A DNA stretch of 64,000 nt, taken from Mumia xiangluensis. Its GTDB lineage: Bacteria > Actinomycetota > Actinomycetes > Propionibacteriales > Nocardioidaceae. The stretch spans positions 372,001 to 436,000 of the forward strand of contig NZ_WJYO01000001.1 in NCBI RefSeq assembly GCF_010994095.1, read 5' to 3'. Below, one piece after another: positions 1,321-59,068 of the stretch. Under the pieces are notes generated by a model. It saw nothing but the letters and a program-made list of their open reading frames with translations. It was not told the origin of the DNA and searched no databases. Position numbers and translations under genes: made by a program. Within the stretch, counting starts at the first letter, position 1. Each line of letters starts with the position of its first letter.

Positions 1321-1500
1321 GGTTTCGACTCGCTCCGCTCGCTCAACCAGCGGGTGTCTCGCGTGCTCAGCCAGCGGGTTTCGACTCGCTCCGCTCGCTC
1401 AACCAGCGGGTGTCTCGCGTGCTCAACCAGCGGGTGACGGGCTGCTCAACCAGCGGGTGTCGCGTGCTCAACCAGCGGGTGTCGCGTGCTCAACCGGCGG
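1321..1500. repeat. Tandem array of the GCTGGTTGAGC palindromic repeat family
   Basis: Seven head-to-tail units fill the gap between the racemase and the acyl-CoA dehydrogenase. Two long units (1321-1354 and 1379-1410) carry the full TTTCGACTCGCTCCGCTCGC core. Five short units (1355-1378, 1411-1434, 1435-1457, 1458-1479, 1480-1500) are 21-24 bp and end in CTCAACCAGCGGG or a variant. On the minus strand each unit starts CCGCTGGTTGAGC. The last unit overlaps the racemase 3' end and supplies its TGA stop (1490-1492). The 24-bp period is the same as in the array inside the PadR gene at 34 kb. Confidence 0.9.
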
Positions 1501-10396: not shown

Positions 10397-11134
10397 TCAA
10401 CGGTCGCGGTCCCGCGTGCCGACCGGGTCCCACCCCGGGCGCGCGGCGCGGGTCCCCGGGACGTCGTCGCGGCTGCGATAGACGATGTAGGGACGGAACA
10501 GGTAGTGCAGCGGCGCGGTGAACGCGTGCACGAGCCGCGTGAACGGCCAGATCGCGAACAGCGCCAGGCCGACGACGACGTGCACGTGGAACGAGGTCGA
10601 CGCCGCCGCCATCGCGTCGACGTCGGGCTGGAGCACCCACAGGCTGCGGAACCACGGCGACACCGTCTCGCGGTAGTTCGTGACGTTCGGGTCGAAGACG
10701 CTCACGACGGTGGTCGCGAGCCCGGCGACGATCGCCGCGACCAGCACGACGTACATGAGCTTGTCGTTCTTCGTCGTCGCCATGAACACCGGGCCGGTCT
10801 TGCGACGGCGGTAGATCAGCAGCGCCACGCCGGCGAGGGTCGCGATCCCCGCGACAGCGCCGAGCGACAGCGCCATGACGTGGTACATGTGCTCGCTGAC
10901 GCCGATCGCGTCCGTCCACGACTCGGGGATGACCAGGCCGATGAAGTGCCCGACCACGACCACGAGGATCCCGAAGTGGAACAACGGGGAAGCGATCCGC
11001 AGCAGCTTCGACTCGTACAGCTGCGACGAGCGCGTCGTCCAGCCGAACTGGTCGTAGCGGTAGCGCCAGATCAACCCGCCGAAGAACACCACGAGGACCA
11101 GGTAGGGGTAGACACCCCAGAGGACGACGTTCAC
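10397..11134 (-). CDS. narI: Respiratory nitrate reductase gamma subunit (cytochrome b)
   Basis: Membrane subunit that takes electrons from quinol through two b haems to NarH. The GTG at 11134 overlaps the narJ stop (GTGA), giving 245 residues, the usual NarI length (about 225-245). Five membrane segments are evident (from LWGVYPYLVLVVFFGG), with haem-ligand histidines expected in FHFGILVVVVGHFIG, EHMYHVM and FHVHVVVG. The signature PLHYLFRPYIVYRSR closes the protein. It is translationally coupled to narJ. Confidence 0.95.
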   Translation of the reverse strand: MNVVLWGVYPYLVLVVFFGGLIWRYRYDQFGWTTRSSQLYESKLLRIASPLFHFGILVVVVGHFIGLVIPESWTDAIGVSEHMYHVMALSLGAVAGIATLAGVALLIYRRRKTGPVFMATTKNDKLMYVVLVAAIVAGLATTVVSVFDPNVTNYRETVSPWFRSLWVLQPDVDAMAAASTSFHVHVVVGLALFAIWPFTRLVHAFTAPLHYLFRPYIVYRSRDDVPGTRAARPGWDPVGTRDRDR

Positions 11135-11859
11135 TGGGAGCCTCCCGCGGTCTCGTGCATCGGCAGCAGACGCGGGTCGTACGCGTCGAGCCCGACGGTC
11201 TCCGTCGGAGGGGGCCCCGCCATCGCCATCGCGGCCGCCTGGTCGCGCGGGCCCGGCCCGTCGTAGGCCGCGCACACGCCGCGGAGGACGTGCACCCACG
11301 GTGTCCCCGTCCCGGTCACCTCGTCGTCAGCCGGGAGCTTCTCGAGCGCGAGACGCAACAGCTCGACGCTCGGCCGATACTGCTCCAGCAGCGCGACACC
11401 GCGTCCCGGGTCGTGGGCGGCGAGCTCCAGCACCATCGGAAGGTAGTCCGGGAGCTCGCCGCGCGTGTCCACGACCAGGCCCGAGTCGCGGTAGGCCTGC
11501 TTGAACTCGGCGAGCACGGCACCGCGGCGTCGGGTGTCGCCGTCGGTGAAGTACGAGAGGTAGAGCGGGTGCTTGCGGTCGAGGTCGAACACCTCGACGT
11601 AGCGACGCGCGAGCGCGTCGACGGGCGTGCGCTCGGCGACGTCGAGGAAGGCGAGCAGGTGGCCGGCGGCATCGGTCTCGACTCGCTTCGCCCGCTCGAC
11701 CAGCGGTGGTCGAGCGAGCTTCTTGGGTCGGGCGAGCCCCCGAGTCGAGACCTCCTCCAGTGCTGTCCGCACCAAGGGCAGGCGCTCGTACGTCGCGGGC
11801 GTCGGGTACGCAAGCAGGATGGCCGCCGCACGGTGCACGACCCGGGCGTCCTTCGTCAT
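11131..11859 (-). CDS. narJ: Nitrate reductase molybdenum cofactor assembly chaperone, with repeat-encoded insertion
   Basis: NarJ-family chaperone (TorD-like) that keeps NarG apo-enzyme competent for cofactor loading; 242 residues. Family hallmarks: VEVFDLDRKHPLYLSYFTDGDTRRRG (about 88-112) and GELPDYLPMVLELAA (about 133-147). Residues about 36-62 (STRGLARPKKLARPPLVERA and flanks) are not family sequence: they are encoded by a 79-bp palindromic repeat (11674-11752) of the dispersed family in this window. The insertion keeps the frame and falls in the loop between the first helix pair and AAGHLLAFLDV, so the chaperone is probably functional. Its ATG overlaps the narH stop by 1 nt and its stop overlaps the narI start. 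Confidence 0.93.
   Translation of the reverse strand: MTKDARVVHRAAAILLAYPTPATYERLPLVRTALEEVSTRGLARPKKLARPPLVERAKRVETDAAGHLLAFLDVAERTPVDALARRYVEVFDLDRKHPLYLSYFTDGDTRRRGAVLAEFKQAYRDSGLVVDTRGELPDYLPMVLELAAHDPGRGVALLEQYRPSVELLRLALEKLPADDEVTGTGTPWVHVLRGVCAAYDGPGPRDQAAAMAMAGPPPTETVGLDAYDPRLLPMHETAGGSQ
11674..11752. repeat. Palindromic repeat element inserted in frame within narJ
   Basis: 79 bp bounded by perfect 12-bp inverted ends: GGTCTCGACTCG (11674-11685) and CGAGTCGAGACC (11741-11752). The centre has a second perfect dyad, GCTCGACCA-GCGG-TGGTCGAGC. This is two inverted copies of the dispersed repeat joined head to head, and it is read through in narJ. Confidence 0.92.
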
Positions 11860-13526
11860 CAGCCCTCATCTCCCTTGCCGGGGAAGAGCCCGTCGGGTGC
11901 ACCGAGACCGTCCCAGTTGAGCAGGTTCACCTGGCCGCTGCGTTGCGGGTCCGGCGCCGCGATCGTGTCGGACTCCTGCCGCTGCTTGAGCGCGTGGAAC
12001 GTCTCCACCGCCATCGGCACAGGCCGTCCGCTCGCCTCACCGACCGGGCCCGACTCGTACATCCCGGGTCCCTCGTCGAAGTCCAGCGAGCACCCCATCT
12101 CCTCGAGGTCGTGCGCCTGCTCGGTGTGGGCCGTCGGGATGACGTACCGCTCGTCGTACTTCGCGATCGCCATCAGCCGGTACATCTCGTACATGGACTC
12201 CTCGGTCATCCCGACCGAGGCGGGGATCGAGTCGTCCGGGTCCTTGCCGAGGTTGATGCCGCGCATGTACGACCGCATCGCCGCGAGCTTGCGCAGCACG
12301 TCCGTGACGACCTCGGTGTCGCCGGCGGTGAAGAGCTCGGCGAGGTACTCGACCGGGATCCGCAGCGCCTCGATCGCCCCGAAGAGCGTGCCCGCGTCCT
12401 CCGCGTCGTGCCCCTGCTCGGCGAGCAGGTCGACGATCGGCGACAGCGGCGGGACGTACCAGACCATCGGCATCGTGCGGTACTCCGGGTGGAGCGGCAG
12501 GGCGACCTTGTACTTCTTCGCGAGCGCGTAGACCGGCGAGCGCTGAGCCCCGTCGATCCAGTCCTGCGGGATCCCCTCGTTCCGCGCCGCGGCGATCACG
12601 TCGGGGTCGTGCGGGTCCAGCATCAGGTCGAGCTGTGCCTCGTACAGGTCCTGGTCGTTCTCGACCGACGCCGCCTCGGTGACGCGGTCGGCGTCGTACA
12701 GGAACACGCCGATGTAGCGCAGCCGGCCCACGCACGTCTCCGCGCACACCGTCGGGATGCCGACCTCCACGCGCGGGTAGCAGAAGGTGCACTTCTCGGC
12801 CTTGCCCGACTTGTGGTTGAAGTAGATCTTCTTGTACGGACAGCCGGTGATGCACTGGCGCCAGCCGCGGCACCGGTCCTGGTCGACGAGGACGATCCCG
12901 TCCTCCTCGCGCTTGTAGATCGCGCCGCTCGGGCACGACGCCATGCACGACGGGTTGAGGCAGTGCTCGCAGATCCGCGGCAGGTAGAACATGAACGTCC
13001 GCTCGAGGTCGAAGCGGATCTTGTCCTCCGACTCCCTGCGGACCTTCTCGACGATCGGGTCCAGCATCGCCGCCGACGGACCGCCGCCCAGGTTGTCGTC
13101 CCAGTTCGCCGACCACGTGATCGCCATGTCCTCGCCGGTGATCAGCGACTTCGGCCGGGCGACCGGGAAGTCGTCGCCCAGCGGGGCGCGGGTGAGGTTC
13201 TCGTAGTCGTACGTCCAGGGCTCGTAGTAGTCCGACAGCTCCGGCTGGACGGGGCTCGCGAAGATGCTCAGCAGCCGCCGCGCGCGCCCGCCCGTCTTCA
13301 GCGAGATGCGACCGCGACGGTTGCGCTCCCAGCCGCCCCGCCACTTGTCCTGGTCCTCGTAGCGCCTCGGGTAGCCCTGACCGGGCCTCGTCTCGACGTT
13401 GTTGAACCAGACGTACTCGACACCCGCGCGGTTGGTCCACGCCTGCTTGCACGTCACCGAGCACGTGTGGCAGCCGATGCACTTGTCGAGGTTCATCACC
13501 ATCGCGACCTGCGCCATGACCTTCAT
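11859..13526 (-). CDS. narH: Respiratory nitrate reductase beta subunit (iron-sulfur)
   Basis: Electron-transfer subunit of 555 residues linking NarI haems to NarG. Four cysteine groups are visible: CIGCHTCSVTCKQAW near the N-terminus, CEHCLNPSCMASCP, CRGWRQCITGCPYKK (Trp in place of one Cys, marking the 3Fe-4S centre) and CTFCYPRV...CAETCVGRLRYIG. Length and order match NarH. The ATG at 13526 (KVMAQVAMVMNLDKCIGC) is the conserved start. It lies 30 bp after narG and overlaps narJ by 1 nt. Confidence 0.96.
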   Translation of the reverse strand: MKVMAQVAMVMNLDKCIGCHTCSVTCKQAWTNRAGVEYVWFNNVETRPGQGYPRRYEDQDKWRGGWERNRRGRISLKTGGRARRLLSIFASPVQPELSDYYEPWTYDYENLTRAPLGDDFPVARPKSLITGEDMAITWSANWDDNLGGGPSAAMLDPIVEKVRRESEDKIRFDLERTFMFYLPRICEHCLNPSCMASCPSGAIYKREEDGIVLVDQDRCRGWRQCITGCPYKKIYFNHKSGKAEKCTFCYPRVEVGIPTVCAETCVGRLRYIGVFLYDADRVTEAASVENDQDLYEAQLDLMLDPHDPDVIAAARNEGIPQDWIDGAQRSPVYALAKKYKVALPLHPEYRTMPMVWYVPPLSPIVDLLAEQGHDAEDAGTLFGAIEALRIPVEYLAELFTAGDTEVVTDVLRKLAAMRSYMRGINLGKDPDDSIPASVGMTEESMYEMYRLMAIAKYDERYVIPTAHTEQAHDLEEMGCSLDFDEGPGMYESGPVGEASGRPVPMAVETFHALKQRQESDTIAAPDPQRSGQVNLLNWDGLGAPDGLFPGKGDEG

Positions 13527-17778: not shown

Positions 17779-17931
17779 CTGGTCGGGCCGCCACCCCACC
17801 CCGCTGGTCGACGCCCCCCACCCCGCTGGTCGAGCCGCCCCCCACCCCGCTGGTCGAGGCGCGAAGCGATCGAGACCCCCGCTGGTCGACGCCCCCCACC
17901 CCGCTGGTCGAGGCGCGAAGCGATCGAGACC
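17779..17931. repeat. Tandem array of the GCTGGTCGAG repeat between cupin and iron-importer genes
   Basis: Convergent intergenic region made almost entirely of CTGGTCGA units separated by CCCCCACCCCG spacers. Two full elements (GCTGGTCGAGGCGCGAAGCG then ATCGAGACC) lie at 17849-17877 and 17903-17931; the last one abuts the TAG stop of the ATPase gene (17931-17933). All copies here run in the same direction, unlike the inverted pair at 30.1 kb. Confidence 0.88.
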
Positions 17932-30077: not shown

Positions 30078-30179
30078 GCTGGTCGAAGCCGCGCCCTCCT
30101 CCGCTGGTCGAGGCGCGAAGCGATCGAGACCACGCCAAAGGTCTCGATCCTCCGCTGGCGCTCCGGCCTCGACCAACGG
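30078..30179. terminator. Inverted pair of dispersed repeats, probable bidirectional terminator
   Basis: After a partial copy at 30078-30090, a full element (30103-30131) faces an inverted copy (30140-30179). The inner stem GATCGAGACC/GGTCTCGATC (30122-30131 with 30140-30149) closes an 8-nt loop ACGCCAAA, and an outer stem GGTCGAGGC/GCCTCGACC (30106-30114 with 30166-30174) is also perfect. It lies between the convergent kdpE and SnoaL-like genes, so it could stop both transcripts. There is no T-run. Confidence 0.75.
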
Positions 30180-33467: not shown

Positions 33468-34199
33468 ATGGCCCTGGAGCACGCGATCCTCGTCTCGCTC
33501 GCCGAACGCACGGCGAGCGGCTACGACCTGACGCGCCGCTTCGACAAGTCGATCGGCTACTTCTGGAAGGCCAGCCACCAGCAGATCTACAAGGTGCTCG
33601 GCCGCATGGAAGCCGACGGCCTGGTCGCCTCCGAGGCGGTCCCGCAGTCGGGCCGGCCCGACAAGAAGGTCTATGCGATCACCGAGGCCGGCCGCGCCGC
33701 GATCCAGGACTGGTCCCGCACGCCGAGCCCGCCTGAGACCTCGCGCAGCGAGTTCGCGGTGAAGCTGCGCGGACTCCCGTACGGCGACCGCGACGCCATC
33801 GTCGCCGACGTGCAGCGCCGGGCCGAGGCACATCGCGAGCGCCTCGCGTACTACCGCGCCGACGAGAGCAGGACGTTCCCCGACGTCGACGCGCTCGACG
33901 ACGCGCAGCGCGCTCAGTACGCGGTGCTCCGCGGCGGCATCCTCCTCGAGGAGGCCGGGCTCGCGTGGTGTCAGGAGATCGTGGAGCTGCTGGGGGGTTT
34001 CGACTCGCTGCGCTCGCTCAACCAGCGGGACGAAGGCTCGCTCAACCAGCGGGACGAAGGCTCGCTCAACCAGCGGGACGAAGGCTCGCTCAACCAGCGG
34101 GACGAAGGCTCGCTCAACCAGCGGGACGAGCGCTCGCTCAACCAGCGGGACGAAGGCTCGCTCAACCAGCGGGCGAGCGGCGGGACCGCAGCGCCGTGA
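33468..34199 (+). CDS. PadR-family transcriptional regulator with repeat-encoded C-terminal tail
   Basis: 243 residues. Residues 1-85 form the PadR winged helix (LEHAILVSLAERTASGYDLTRRF, KASHQQIYKVLGRMEADGLV, GRPDKKVYAITEAGRAAIQDW); residues about 100-175 are the Vir-like C-terminal dimerisation helix region. From residue 177 the protein is not family sequence: GGFDSLR followed by seven SLNQR units separated by DEG (once DER). This tail is encoded by one 34-bp full unit (33996-34029) of the dispersed repeat plus six 24-bp units. Its 3' end overlaps the convergent SCO4848-family gene by 38 bp. The core regulator looks intact. Confidence 0.9.
   Translation: MALEHAILVSLAERTASGYDLTRRFDKSIGYFWKASHQQIYKVLGRMEADGLVASEAVPQSGRPDKKVYAITEAGRAAIQDWSRTPSPPETSRSEFAVKLRGLPYGDRDAIVADVQRRAEAHRERLAYYRADESRTFPDVDALDDAQRAQYAVLRGGILLEEAGLAWCQEIVELLGGFDSLRSLNQRDEGSLNQRDEGSLNQRDEGSLNQRDEGSLNQRDERSLNQRDEGSLNQRASGGTAAP
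33996..34173. repeat. 24-bp coding tandem repeat derived from the dispersed element
   Basis: A full 34-bp unit (33996-34029) differs from the one at 1321 by a single base. Six perfect or near-perfect 24-bp units follow (34030-34053, 34054-34077, 34078-34101, 34102-34125, 34126-34149, 34150-34173), each ACGAAGGCTCGCTCAACCAG then CGGG; only the fifth differs (GCGC for AGGC). Because 24 is a multiple of three, copy-number change would keep the reading frame. Confidence 0.95.
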
Positions 34200-38985: not shown

Positions 38986-39755
38986 TGCCGTCTCGCAGCG
39001 CCGTGCTCCTTGTGTCCGCGGCGCTGCTCGTCTGCATCCCCGCGCCGGGCTCGGCAGCCGCGTCGGAGGGGCCTCGACTCGCTGCGCTCGCTCGACCAGC
39101 GGAAACCGCCGTCGCTCGACCAGCGGAAGCTGCTGTGCGCCTCGATGGCGTCACCGTCCGCCTCAGGGCGGGGACGCGCCAGGTCGTGACGGTCAACCGC
39201 ACCCGGTCGTACCGTGCCCGCGTCACCTACTGGGTCCTGCGCGACGGCGGCTGGACCGTGAAGCGGCAGACGACGAACGGGCGCATCGGGTACGGCGGCC
39301 TGGTCGCCGCGTCGAAGCGCAGGCAGGCGACGGGGACGACGCCGCTCGGGACGTTCGCGATGACAGAGGCGTTCGGGATCCGGTCGCGCCCGAGCGGCAC
39401 CGCGTTGCCGTACAGGAAGGTCCGCGCAGGCGACTACTGGGTGCAGGACAACCGCTCCGCGTACTACAACACGCTGCGCAACAAGGCTGCCGGCGGATTC
39501 CGCTGGTGGCTCCCTTCATCGCGCCTCAACGCGTCCGAGCGGCTGCGCGACTACCGGACGCAGTACGTCTGGTCGATCGTCATCGACTTCAACCGGCCGC
39601 CGAACGCGGTCCGCTACCGCGGATCCGGCATCTTCTTCCACGCCAACGGCAAGGGCGCGACCGCGGGATGCGTGTCCGTTCCACCCCGTTTTGTCCGGTT
39701 TGTCATGAAACGCCTTCGTGCCAATCGTGCCCCCGTCATCGCGATCGGACGTTGA
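38985..39755 (+). CDS. L,D-transpeptidase (YkuD-like) with repeat-encoded linker
   Basis: 256-residue exported enzyme. Signal peptide at 1-27 (AVLLVSAALLVCIPAPGSAAA), then a linker at residues 29-47 (LAALARPAETAVARPAEAAV) encoded by the dispersed repeat, then a YkuD-type domain: GRIGYGGLVAASKRRQATGTTPLGTF, and catalytic HANGKGATAGCVSVPP with His and Cys near residues 223 and 233. Family members cross-link or modify peptidoglycan peptides. TGATG overlap with manA. The usual SHGC motif is TAGC here. A GTG at 38982 adds one residue. Confidence 0.88.
   Translation: MPSRSAVLLVSAALLVCIPAPGSAAASEGPRLAALARPAETAVARPAEAAVRLDGVTVRLRAGTRQVVTVNRTRSYRARVTYWVLRDGGWTVKRQTTNGRIGYGGLVAASKRRQATGTTPLGTFAMTEAFGIRSRPSGTALPYRKVRAGDYWVQDNRSAYYNTLRNKAAGGFRWWLPSSRLNASERLRDYRTQYVWSIVIDFNRPPNAVRYRGSGIFFHANGKGATAGCVSVPPRFVRFVMKRLRANRAPVIAIGR
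39071..39126. repeat. Dispersed repeat inside L,D-transpeptidase gene
   Basis: One unit at 39071-39102 (CCTCGACTCGCTGCGCTCGC then TCGACCAGCGG) and a truncated unit at 39111-39126 (GTCGCTCGACCAGCGG). Both are read in frame just after the signal peptide. Confidence 0.85.
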
Positions 39756-44132: not shown

Positions 44133-44298
44133 GGGGTCCCTCTCCTGGTCGGTCTCAGGTCGTTCCACCCGGAGGTGGCGGTCGACCCAGGGCCCAGGCG
44201 AACGGTCCCGCGGTCATTGCTGATGTGCCGCTCCCTGGTGGTCTGCCCACCTGAACGCCAGTCGCGACGGGTTCAGTGTAGGTCGCAACCGCGGGAAC

Positions 44299-58992: not shown

Positions 58993-59068
58993 CCCGTCCC
59001 CGATTCGGGCAGTTCGGGTAGGAATCCGGGGGTGGATTCCTGCCCGAACTGCCCAAATCGGGGACGGG
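58993..59068. repeat. Near-perfect 35-bp inverted repeat (hairpin)
   Basis: Left arm 58993-59027 begins CCCGTCCCCGATTCGGGCAG and ends TAGGAATCC; right arm 59034-59068 is its reverse complement at 33 of 35 positions, one difference being a wobble pair. The loop is 6 nt (GGGGGT). On the minus strand it lies between the YCII and ECF42 genes and starts 20 bp before the sigma factor GTG. Confidence 0.93.

Follow-up and report, generated by a model that had tools for sequence, protein, structure and literature searches.

A REP-like composite repeat read in frame in narJ of Mumia xiangluensis, and the association of its family with genes for standalone GIY-YIG nucleases

REP-like repeats are common in bacteria, and several described families resemble the one reported here. 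A 2013 study (Di Nocera 2013, PMC3733652) recognized two REP super-families, one of which (CGTC REPs) had no known dedicated transposase, and it reported intragenic REPs in several species, with recB and DnaE2 genes among the carriers. This contradicts the initial annotation of the present locus, which held that palindromes in protein genes are well known only from Rickettsia and a few other groups. For Rickettsia itself, a review (PMC2229807) counts RPE insertions in 19 reading frames and describes an RPE-bearing guanylate kinase that is active. On the enzyme side, a survey of GIY-YIG proteins (PMC1564403) puts standalone prokaryotic forms in the Slx1 cluster, and the matching places covered in it (12 of 15) make no mention of flanking repeats. 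Words starting with RAYT or nuclease are absent from the RepRanger paper (PMC12306157), and a GIY-YIG/REP link is absent among the matches listed for the open literature (subscription journals and preprints lie outside this scope). A pairing of REPs with a GIY-YIG nuclease, the nuclease standing where a RAYT would, is apparently undescribed.

We analysed a 64,000-nt stretch of the M. xiangluensis genome (the window; the genome is called G000 here), in which narJ carries an in-frame insert. We conclude that this insert is a composite of REP-like mobile elements and that the event is an intragenic REP-type insertion, a kind already known. Our main reading, to which we give a probability of roughly two in three, is that the family behind this composite is most likely spread by a standalone GIY-YIG endonuclease of about 95 residues encoded amid its cognate repeats. 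The association of repeat and nuclease is strong; that the nuclease moves the repeats is what we infer from it. The features of the window that bear on this reading are collected in Table 1.

Table 1. Repeat copies and the narJ gene in the window (C1, contig coordinates in G000).
Feature	Position in window	Strand	Description	Basis
narJ	11131..11859	(-)	242 aa, nitrate reductase molybdenum cofactor assembly chaperone	ORF; TIGR00684 E 1.3e-23, PF02613 E 1.5e-12
Composite repeat insert	11674..11752	(-)	~NarJ residues 36-62	inverted repeats; absent or shorter in most relatives; fold z -5.06
Complete unit	11674..11706	(-)	CCGCTGGTCGAGCGGGCGAAGCGAGTCGAGACC; G000:C1:383674-383706	exact family-pattern match
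Degenerate inverted half-unit, ~7 nt spacer, degenerate unit	11707..11752	(+)		parsed by eye from sequence
33-nt unit copy	1321..1353	(-)	C1:373321-373353	pattern match
33-nt unit copy	1377..1409	(-)	followed by half-units to ~1506	pattern match
31-nt subfamily copy	17847..17877	(+)		pattern match
31-nt subfamily copy	17901..17931	(+)		pattern match
31-nt subfamily copy	30101..30131	(+)		pattern match
33-nt unit and half-unit array	33996..34179	(-)	complete 33-nt unit (33996-34028) and tandem 24-nt half-unit array	pattern match
Degenerate 33-nt unit copy	39070..39102	(-)	C1:411070-411102	91% identity

The narJ frame adjoins an ORF at 11859-13526, which we read as narH. The 79-bp element that the initial annotation had placed here, with perfect 12-bp inverted ends, was confirmed, as was its position inside the open narJ frame, where it contributes about 27 residues (reading as about EVSTRGLARPKKLARPPLVERAKRVETD); its central dyad, described as perfect, is 13 nt at 92%. 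We parse the composite as a head-to-head pair of units, such that the coding strand presents the degenerate inverted half-unit and unit first and the complete unit CCGCTGGTCGAGCGGGCGAAGCGAGTCGAGACC last. Because 79 is not divisible by 3, the palindrome by itself does not equal the net insertion. Matches to the family models begin C-terminal of the insert, at residue 63 for the NCBIfam narJ model and at residue 65 for Pfam PF02613, so the conserved NarJ match starts after it. The segment from LLAYP to LLAFLD spans 53, 43, 38, 37, 31 and 30 residues in six Mumia genomes and 27-33 residues in 22 rows from other genera (this segment pattern was readable in 29 of 85 NarJ rows). The loop at this site is mostly shorter in relatives, as had been proposed, and none of them carries an unrelated sequence of the same length. 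A clean gap at residues 36-62 had also been anticipated; in an alignment of 30 rows (L064 omitted) most relatives do show gaps, but two of them (L040 and L060) are partly filled. At the same place in narJ of one congener (G004) there is a stretch that by eye resembles another subfamily of the repeat. This stretch and the length series together indicate that the loop is variable within Mumia and that the repeat fills it in G000; another congener (G005) has 0 strict copies of the repeat and yet a 38-residue loop segment. An AlphaFold model of NarJ (mean pLDDT 77.4) matches the fold of the solved NarJ structures 8jzc and 8jzd. Within it, the insert is predicted to run from loop to weak helix between two confident helices, but its shape is of low confidence (mean pLDDT 53-56 for residues 41-60). 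The insert appears to be tolerated, as the initial annotation had argued, being in frame and in a loop that looks tolerant.

In Mumia the head of the unit reads CCGCT, the outer stem spans 4 bp and has a 2-nt bulge, the letters GAG...TCGA are constant and the interior varies; the units fall into subfamilies with common ends and differing interiors. For counting, we used a strict family pattern (CCGCTGGTYGA-N(3-30)-TCGARACC), which itself fixes the ends of the matched units as CCGCT at the start and ACC at the end, and the reversed pattern as a control. The strict pattern gave 160 matches in G000 (4.62 Mb) and 86, 79, 14, 43 and 0 in congeners G001-G005, while the reversed pattern gave 0 in each of these genomes. 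Among 132 copies sampled from G000, unit lengths were 31-49 nt with one exception of 57, and half-units recur before full units with a period near 24. The statement that the narJ element occurs elsewhere holds for 33-nt-unit copies in the window and the genome, but the 4.62-Mb genome has the whole 79-bp composite at this one place; from its first 47 bases, parts are found repeatedly (51 matches at E 0.001, the site itself included). The family has the unit size (tens of bp) and the interspersed copy number (tens to hundreds) of REPs in the broad sense. That it reflects an assembly or chance artefact, as might be feared of repeats so short and abundant, is hardly credible, given the empty reversed-pattern control and the inserts at the same loops in other Mumia genomes. 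At the Rfam gathering threshold, no family was found at the repeats of the window, and when six repeat pieces of 12-15 letters were sought in open papers, a single paper contained one piece, apparently on an unrelated subject. The window also holds features of other kinds. The sole Rfam match in it is a ZMP/ZTP riboswitch aptamer (RF01750, 46.8 bits) at 44185-44275 (-). Three related arms of ~39 nt (CGTTTGCCACGCTCGCACCGCAAATGCCG...) stand in inverted arrangement at 23-153 and are unlike the narJ repeat family, and at 58993-59068 there is an inverted repeat of 35 nt (94% complementary, 6-nt loop).

As single-stranded DNA, the 79-bp composite folds far better than its shuffles (z -5.06). The stem-loop of the units is preserved by compensatory change, as in REPs in the broad sense, but four single units that were tried folded no better than shuffles (z -0.07 to -0.41). 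Near nuclease genes, position 4 of the outer stem is T-A in 148 units, C-G in 126 and mismatched in 3. In the 9 sequences of the 47-nt class, 100% of interior-stem cells are paired and 5 are changed on both sides; on either measure, 0 of 500 shuffles came as high. Compensatory change occurs at 2 of its 12 pairs, the other 10 being invariant, and two of the five measures were unexceptional (pairs changed on both sides, 100/500 shuffles as high; further pair types, 93/500).

The narJ insert has counterparts in other genes. We inspected 85 repeat clusters in ~332 kb of G000 stretches that were chosen for holding copies, and compared candidate genes with their orthologs in two to five Mumia congeners per gene. 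Ten genes carry in-frame inserts, which is insertion into conserved protein genes of the intragenic-palindrome (RPE) type. By our own reading of the gene names, these are narJ, cobN, a transketolase N-terminal gene, a thiamine-diphosphate enzyme, recB, dnaE2, a cydC-like ABC gene, mfd, an M20-type amidohydrolase and a DUF6351 gene; Pfam support came from CobN, transketolase, TPP enzyme, UvrD helicase, HHH_6, UvrB_inter, Peptidase_M20, ABC and DUF6351. A respiratory chaperone gene had seemed a notable carrier, but with nine other genes of this genome carrying in-frame copies, narJ is not special. The transketolase insert is absent from 5/5 congeners, and by eye its insertion site has no target duplication. 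The inserts in the thiamine-diphosphate, cydC-like and DUF6351 genes are less clean, the site being a linker that varies in all congeners. In recB, mfd, cobN, dnaE2 and the amidohydrolase, the loop that is filled in G000 is occupied in some congeners by a different insert of their own; five of these congener sites overlap pattern copies (cobN, dnaE2 and recB in G001; recB and the amidohydrolase in G002).

In 19/19 cases inside the ten genes (from 8 genes), array spacing is divisible by 3, versus 93/222 outside them; the in-gene set is partly chosen for same-frame flanks, which constrains short arrays. This count covers genes that were compared with their orthologs; with the copies in atuA-like, chlD-like and pab-like genes it is 20/20. 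This spacing supports the prediction that the inserts are translated into protein. In cobN, an insert of 62 residues (G000:C1:102403-102588) has tandem repeats of ~7 residues between two inverted units, and in mfd one of 68 residues (G000:C3:247874-248077) has tandem repeats of ~12 residues, again between two inverted units. These in-gene arrays appear to grow by whole numbers of codons. Outside the ten genes, the clusters with a clear coding signal on both sides comprise 16 in convergent, 2 in divergent and 11 in same-strand context, as scored by codon usage trained on six window genes, with at least one flank lacking a clear signal in 46 of the 85 clusters. One could regard the narJ insert as a selected functional linker or regulatory hairpin instead of a tolerated selfish copy, because it is in frame, its modelled shape runs from low-confidence loop to weak helix, and the composite can fold strongly. 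We consider this very improbable, since inserts hit unrelated genes, several reading frames of the unit are used, and length and content differ among species at the same loop.

The link to a nuclease comes from two large convergent arrays of G000, outside the window, each of which encloses one standalone GIY-YIG gene. Around one gene (G000:C1:1045814-1046098) the units are of the 33-nt class, and around the other of the 31-nt class; these two classes are the most frequent in the G000 sample (67 and 37 of 132 copies). The two proteins match PF01541 at E 9e-21 and 6.8e-20, and in an NCBIfam search no model reached its cut-off for them. The letters Y, Y, G, R, H and E, which we take to have catalytic roles, are invariant in 49/49 nuclease rows, so that both the GIY-YIG domain and its motif are present. 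A GIY-YIG match at 1e-8 was found in 177 of 341 Nocardioidaceae genomes. From the best-scoring of these matches we took 70 nuclease loci, and 68 entered the flank tests after two short ones (L270 and L271) were dropped. A comparison free of any pattern found a repeat common to both 300-bp flanks at 66/68 loci (inverted in 60) and in 2/68 control windows. With the strict pattern, 55 of the 68 loci have units on both sides within 500 bp, 2 on one side and 11 on neither; 277 units were counted within 500 bp of nuclease genes versus 5 at 1000-1500 bp. On reading, the 11 missed loci hold apparent variants with different outer stems. A general formula (S-GAG-N-TCGA-S', with any 4-bp outer stem) finds units on both sides in 64/68 loci, with counts of 354 close to the genes, 16 farther off and 5 when the flanks were shuffled. 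Because this formula was devised after the 11 missed loci had been read, the flank comparison made without a pattern gives the fairer test, and its result agrees.

Copy number follows the gene. Matches to the C-class pattern have a median of 53 in the 177 genomes with the nuclease gene versus 16 in the 164 without it (p 8.6e-23), and 60 versus 21 within genus g18 (p 1.3e-13), p-values that overstate independence because the genomes are related; some background matches are chance occurrences in coding DNA. More than 60 matches occur in 77/177 genomes with the gene versus 12/164 without it. These twelve count against the nuclease model, as does G002, a Mumia congener with 79 strict-pattern copies and no GIY-YIG match at 1e-8, in which the nuclease gene was possibly lost after the repeats had spread. 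Mapped onto the nuclease tree (which holds 49 of 73 rows and has many weakly supported forks), the outer-stem class changes 11 times versus 21.8 when shuffled, and 0 of 200 shuffles were as low. The GIY-YIG gene might instead be a passenger, a homing-type or otherwise selfish nuclease that lodges in the arrays while another activity spreads the repeats. The nuclease genes do sit inside or between arrays, some genomes are repeat-rich yet lack the gene, and GIY-YIG domains occur in homing enzymes (PMC1564403). We consider a passenger unlikely, since a gene that merely lodges in arrays sits poorly with stem classes that cluster on the nuclease tree, with a copy number that tracks gene presence, and with the two commonest G000 subfamilies being those that flank its two nuclease genes.

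Under the nuclease model that we prefer, the repeats spread in Mumia and other genomes of the family, landing between genes and occasionally, with the frame kept, inside protein loops that tolerate them. The GIY-YIG nuclease would nick or cut the folded unit, and host repair, either by copying from a repeat or by end joining, would place a copy elsewhere. A GIY-YIG nuclease is not known to rejoin DNA on its own, so host functions must be assumed. The poor folding of single units, the lack of a target duplication at the transketolase site and the long narJ loop of G005 likewise speak against the model. Selection would then keep frame and loop position, and half-unit arrays may grow by slippage.

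A more conventional account would make the units ordinary REPs moved by a RAYT (a Y1/HUH transposase). Unit size is similar, the placing is partly convergent and intergenic, and REP and RAYT form a known pair (PMC3733652). We find it improbable: the main units have no GTAG end, and PF01797 was found in 0/6 Mumia genomes by a search that was positive in 5/14 control genomes. On that count, RAYT was rejected as the mobilizer in Mumia.

Beyond the family, 32 of 396 genomes drawn from the phylum have a GIY-YIG match. Flanking repeats are shared in 3/3 further close relatives and in 2/23 distant relatives of the phylum (23 of 25 loci used), and the general formula is found on both sides in 0/25 distant loci. 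The flanks of the two distant loci with shared repeats (L340 and L342) look CGTC-like by eye, as judged from the description in PMC3733652. Among plasmid GIY-YIG loci (15 of 26 records), the flanks share repeats in 7/15 versus 0/15 control windows, namely in two loci of Methylobacterium, one of Sphingomonas, three of related Sphingobium and one of Planktothrix. The eight without shared repeats come from a second Sphingomonas, Cupriavidus, Radiobacillus, Subdoligranulum, Cetobacterium, Bacillus, Acetoanaerobium and Paenibacillus. Among genes beyond the close group, 9/38 show the link, and because of these distant and plasmid counts we regard it as true of some branches of the superfamily and not of all. 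The repeat-flanked gene of Planktothrix agardhii plasmid p1 (L350, NZ_LR882964.1:17659-20283) lies between an MmeI-like restriction gene and the DISARM gene drmA.

More tentatively, and with the odds somewhat against it, a branch of small standalone GIY-YIG nucleases could be the missing enzyme of repeat families without a RAYT, including CGTC REPs and intragenic palindromes of the Rickettsia type. As a second enzyme class, unrelated to RAYTs, it would fill the RAYT role and be the source of in-frame inserts in bacterial proteins. If the GIY-YIG nuclease does the work, the question of the transposase comes within reach of simple biochemistry on a 95-residue protein and a short oligonucleotide. 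Such a role would also account for the repeated entry of short peptides into conserved bacterial proteins, and would provide a case of apparent joint change of nuclease and hairpin.

Among known systems, the UPF0213/YazA GIY-YIG proteins (1zg2 and 1ywl) are the nearest solved structures by sequence and have the same domain as the Mumia nuclease. Unlike the Mumia genes, YazA-type genes (Bacillus, Radiobacillus) stand in closely spaced gene runs and have no shared flanking repeats. CGTC REPs and the Rickettsia repeats RPE-4 and RPE-6 resemble the Mumia family in having intragenic copies, many of them in replication or repair genes, and no known dedicated RAYT. They differ in sequence, in their reported range of five phyla without Actinobacteria, and in being said to lack a dedicated transposase (PMC3733652); the G000 units have neither the unpaired CGTC end nor the CCA-like tail. 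The GTAG REP/RAYT REPtron shares with the Mumia system short, high-copy, hairpin-type repeats arranged in arrays and head-to-head pairs, a nuclease gene with the cognate repeat on its flanks, and some intragenic copies (PMC3733652). Its Y1 transposase (PF01797) and unpaired GTAG end are absent from the six Mumia genomes and from the main Mumia units, respectively: the ends and the constant letters are different, and in the place of the Y1/HUH enzyme stands a GIY-YIG nuclease.
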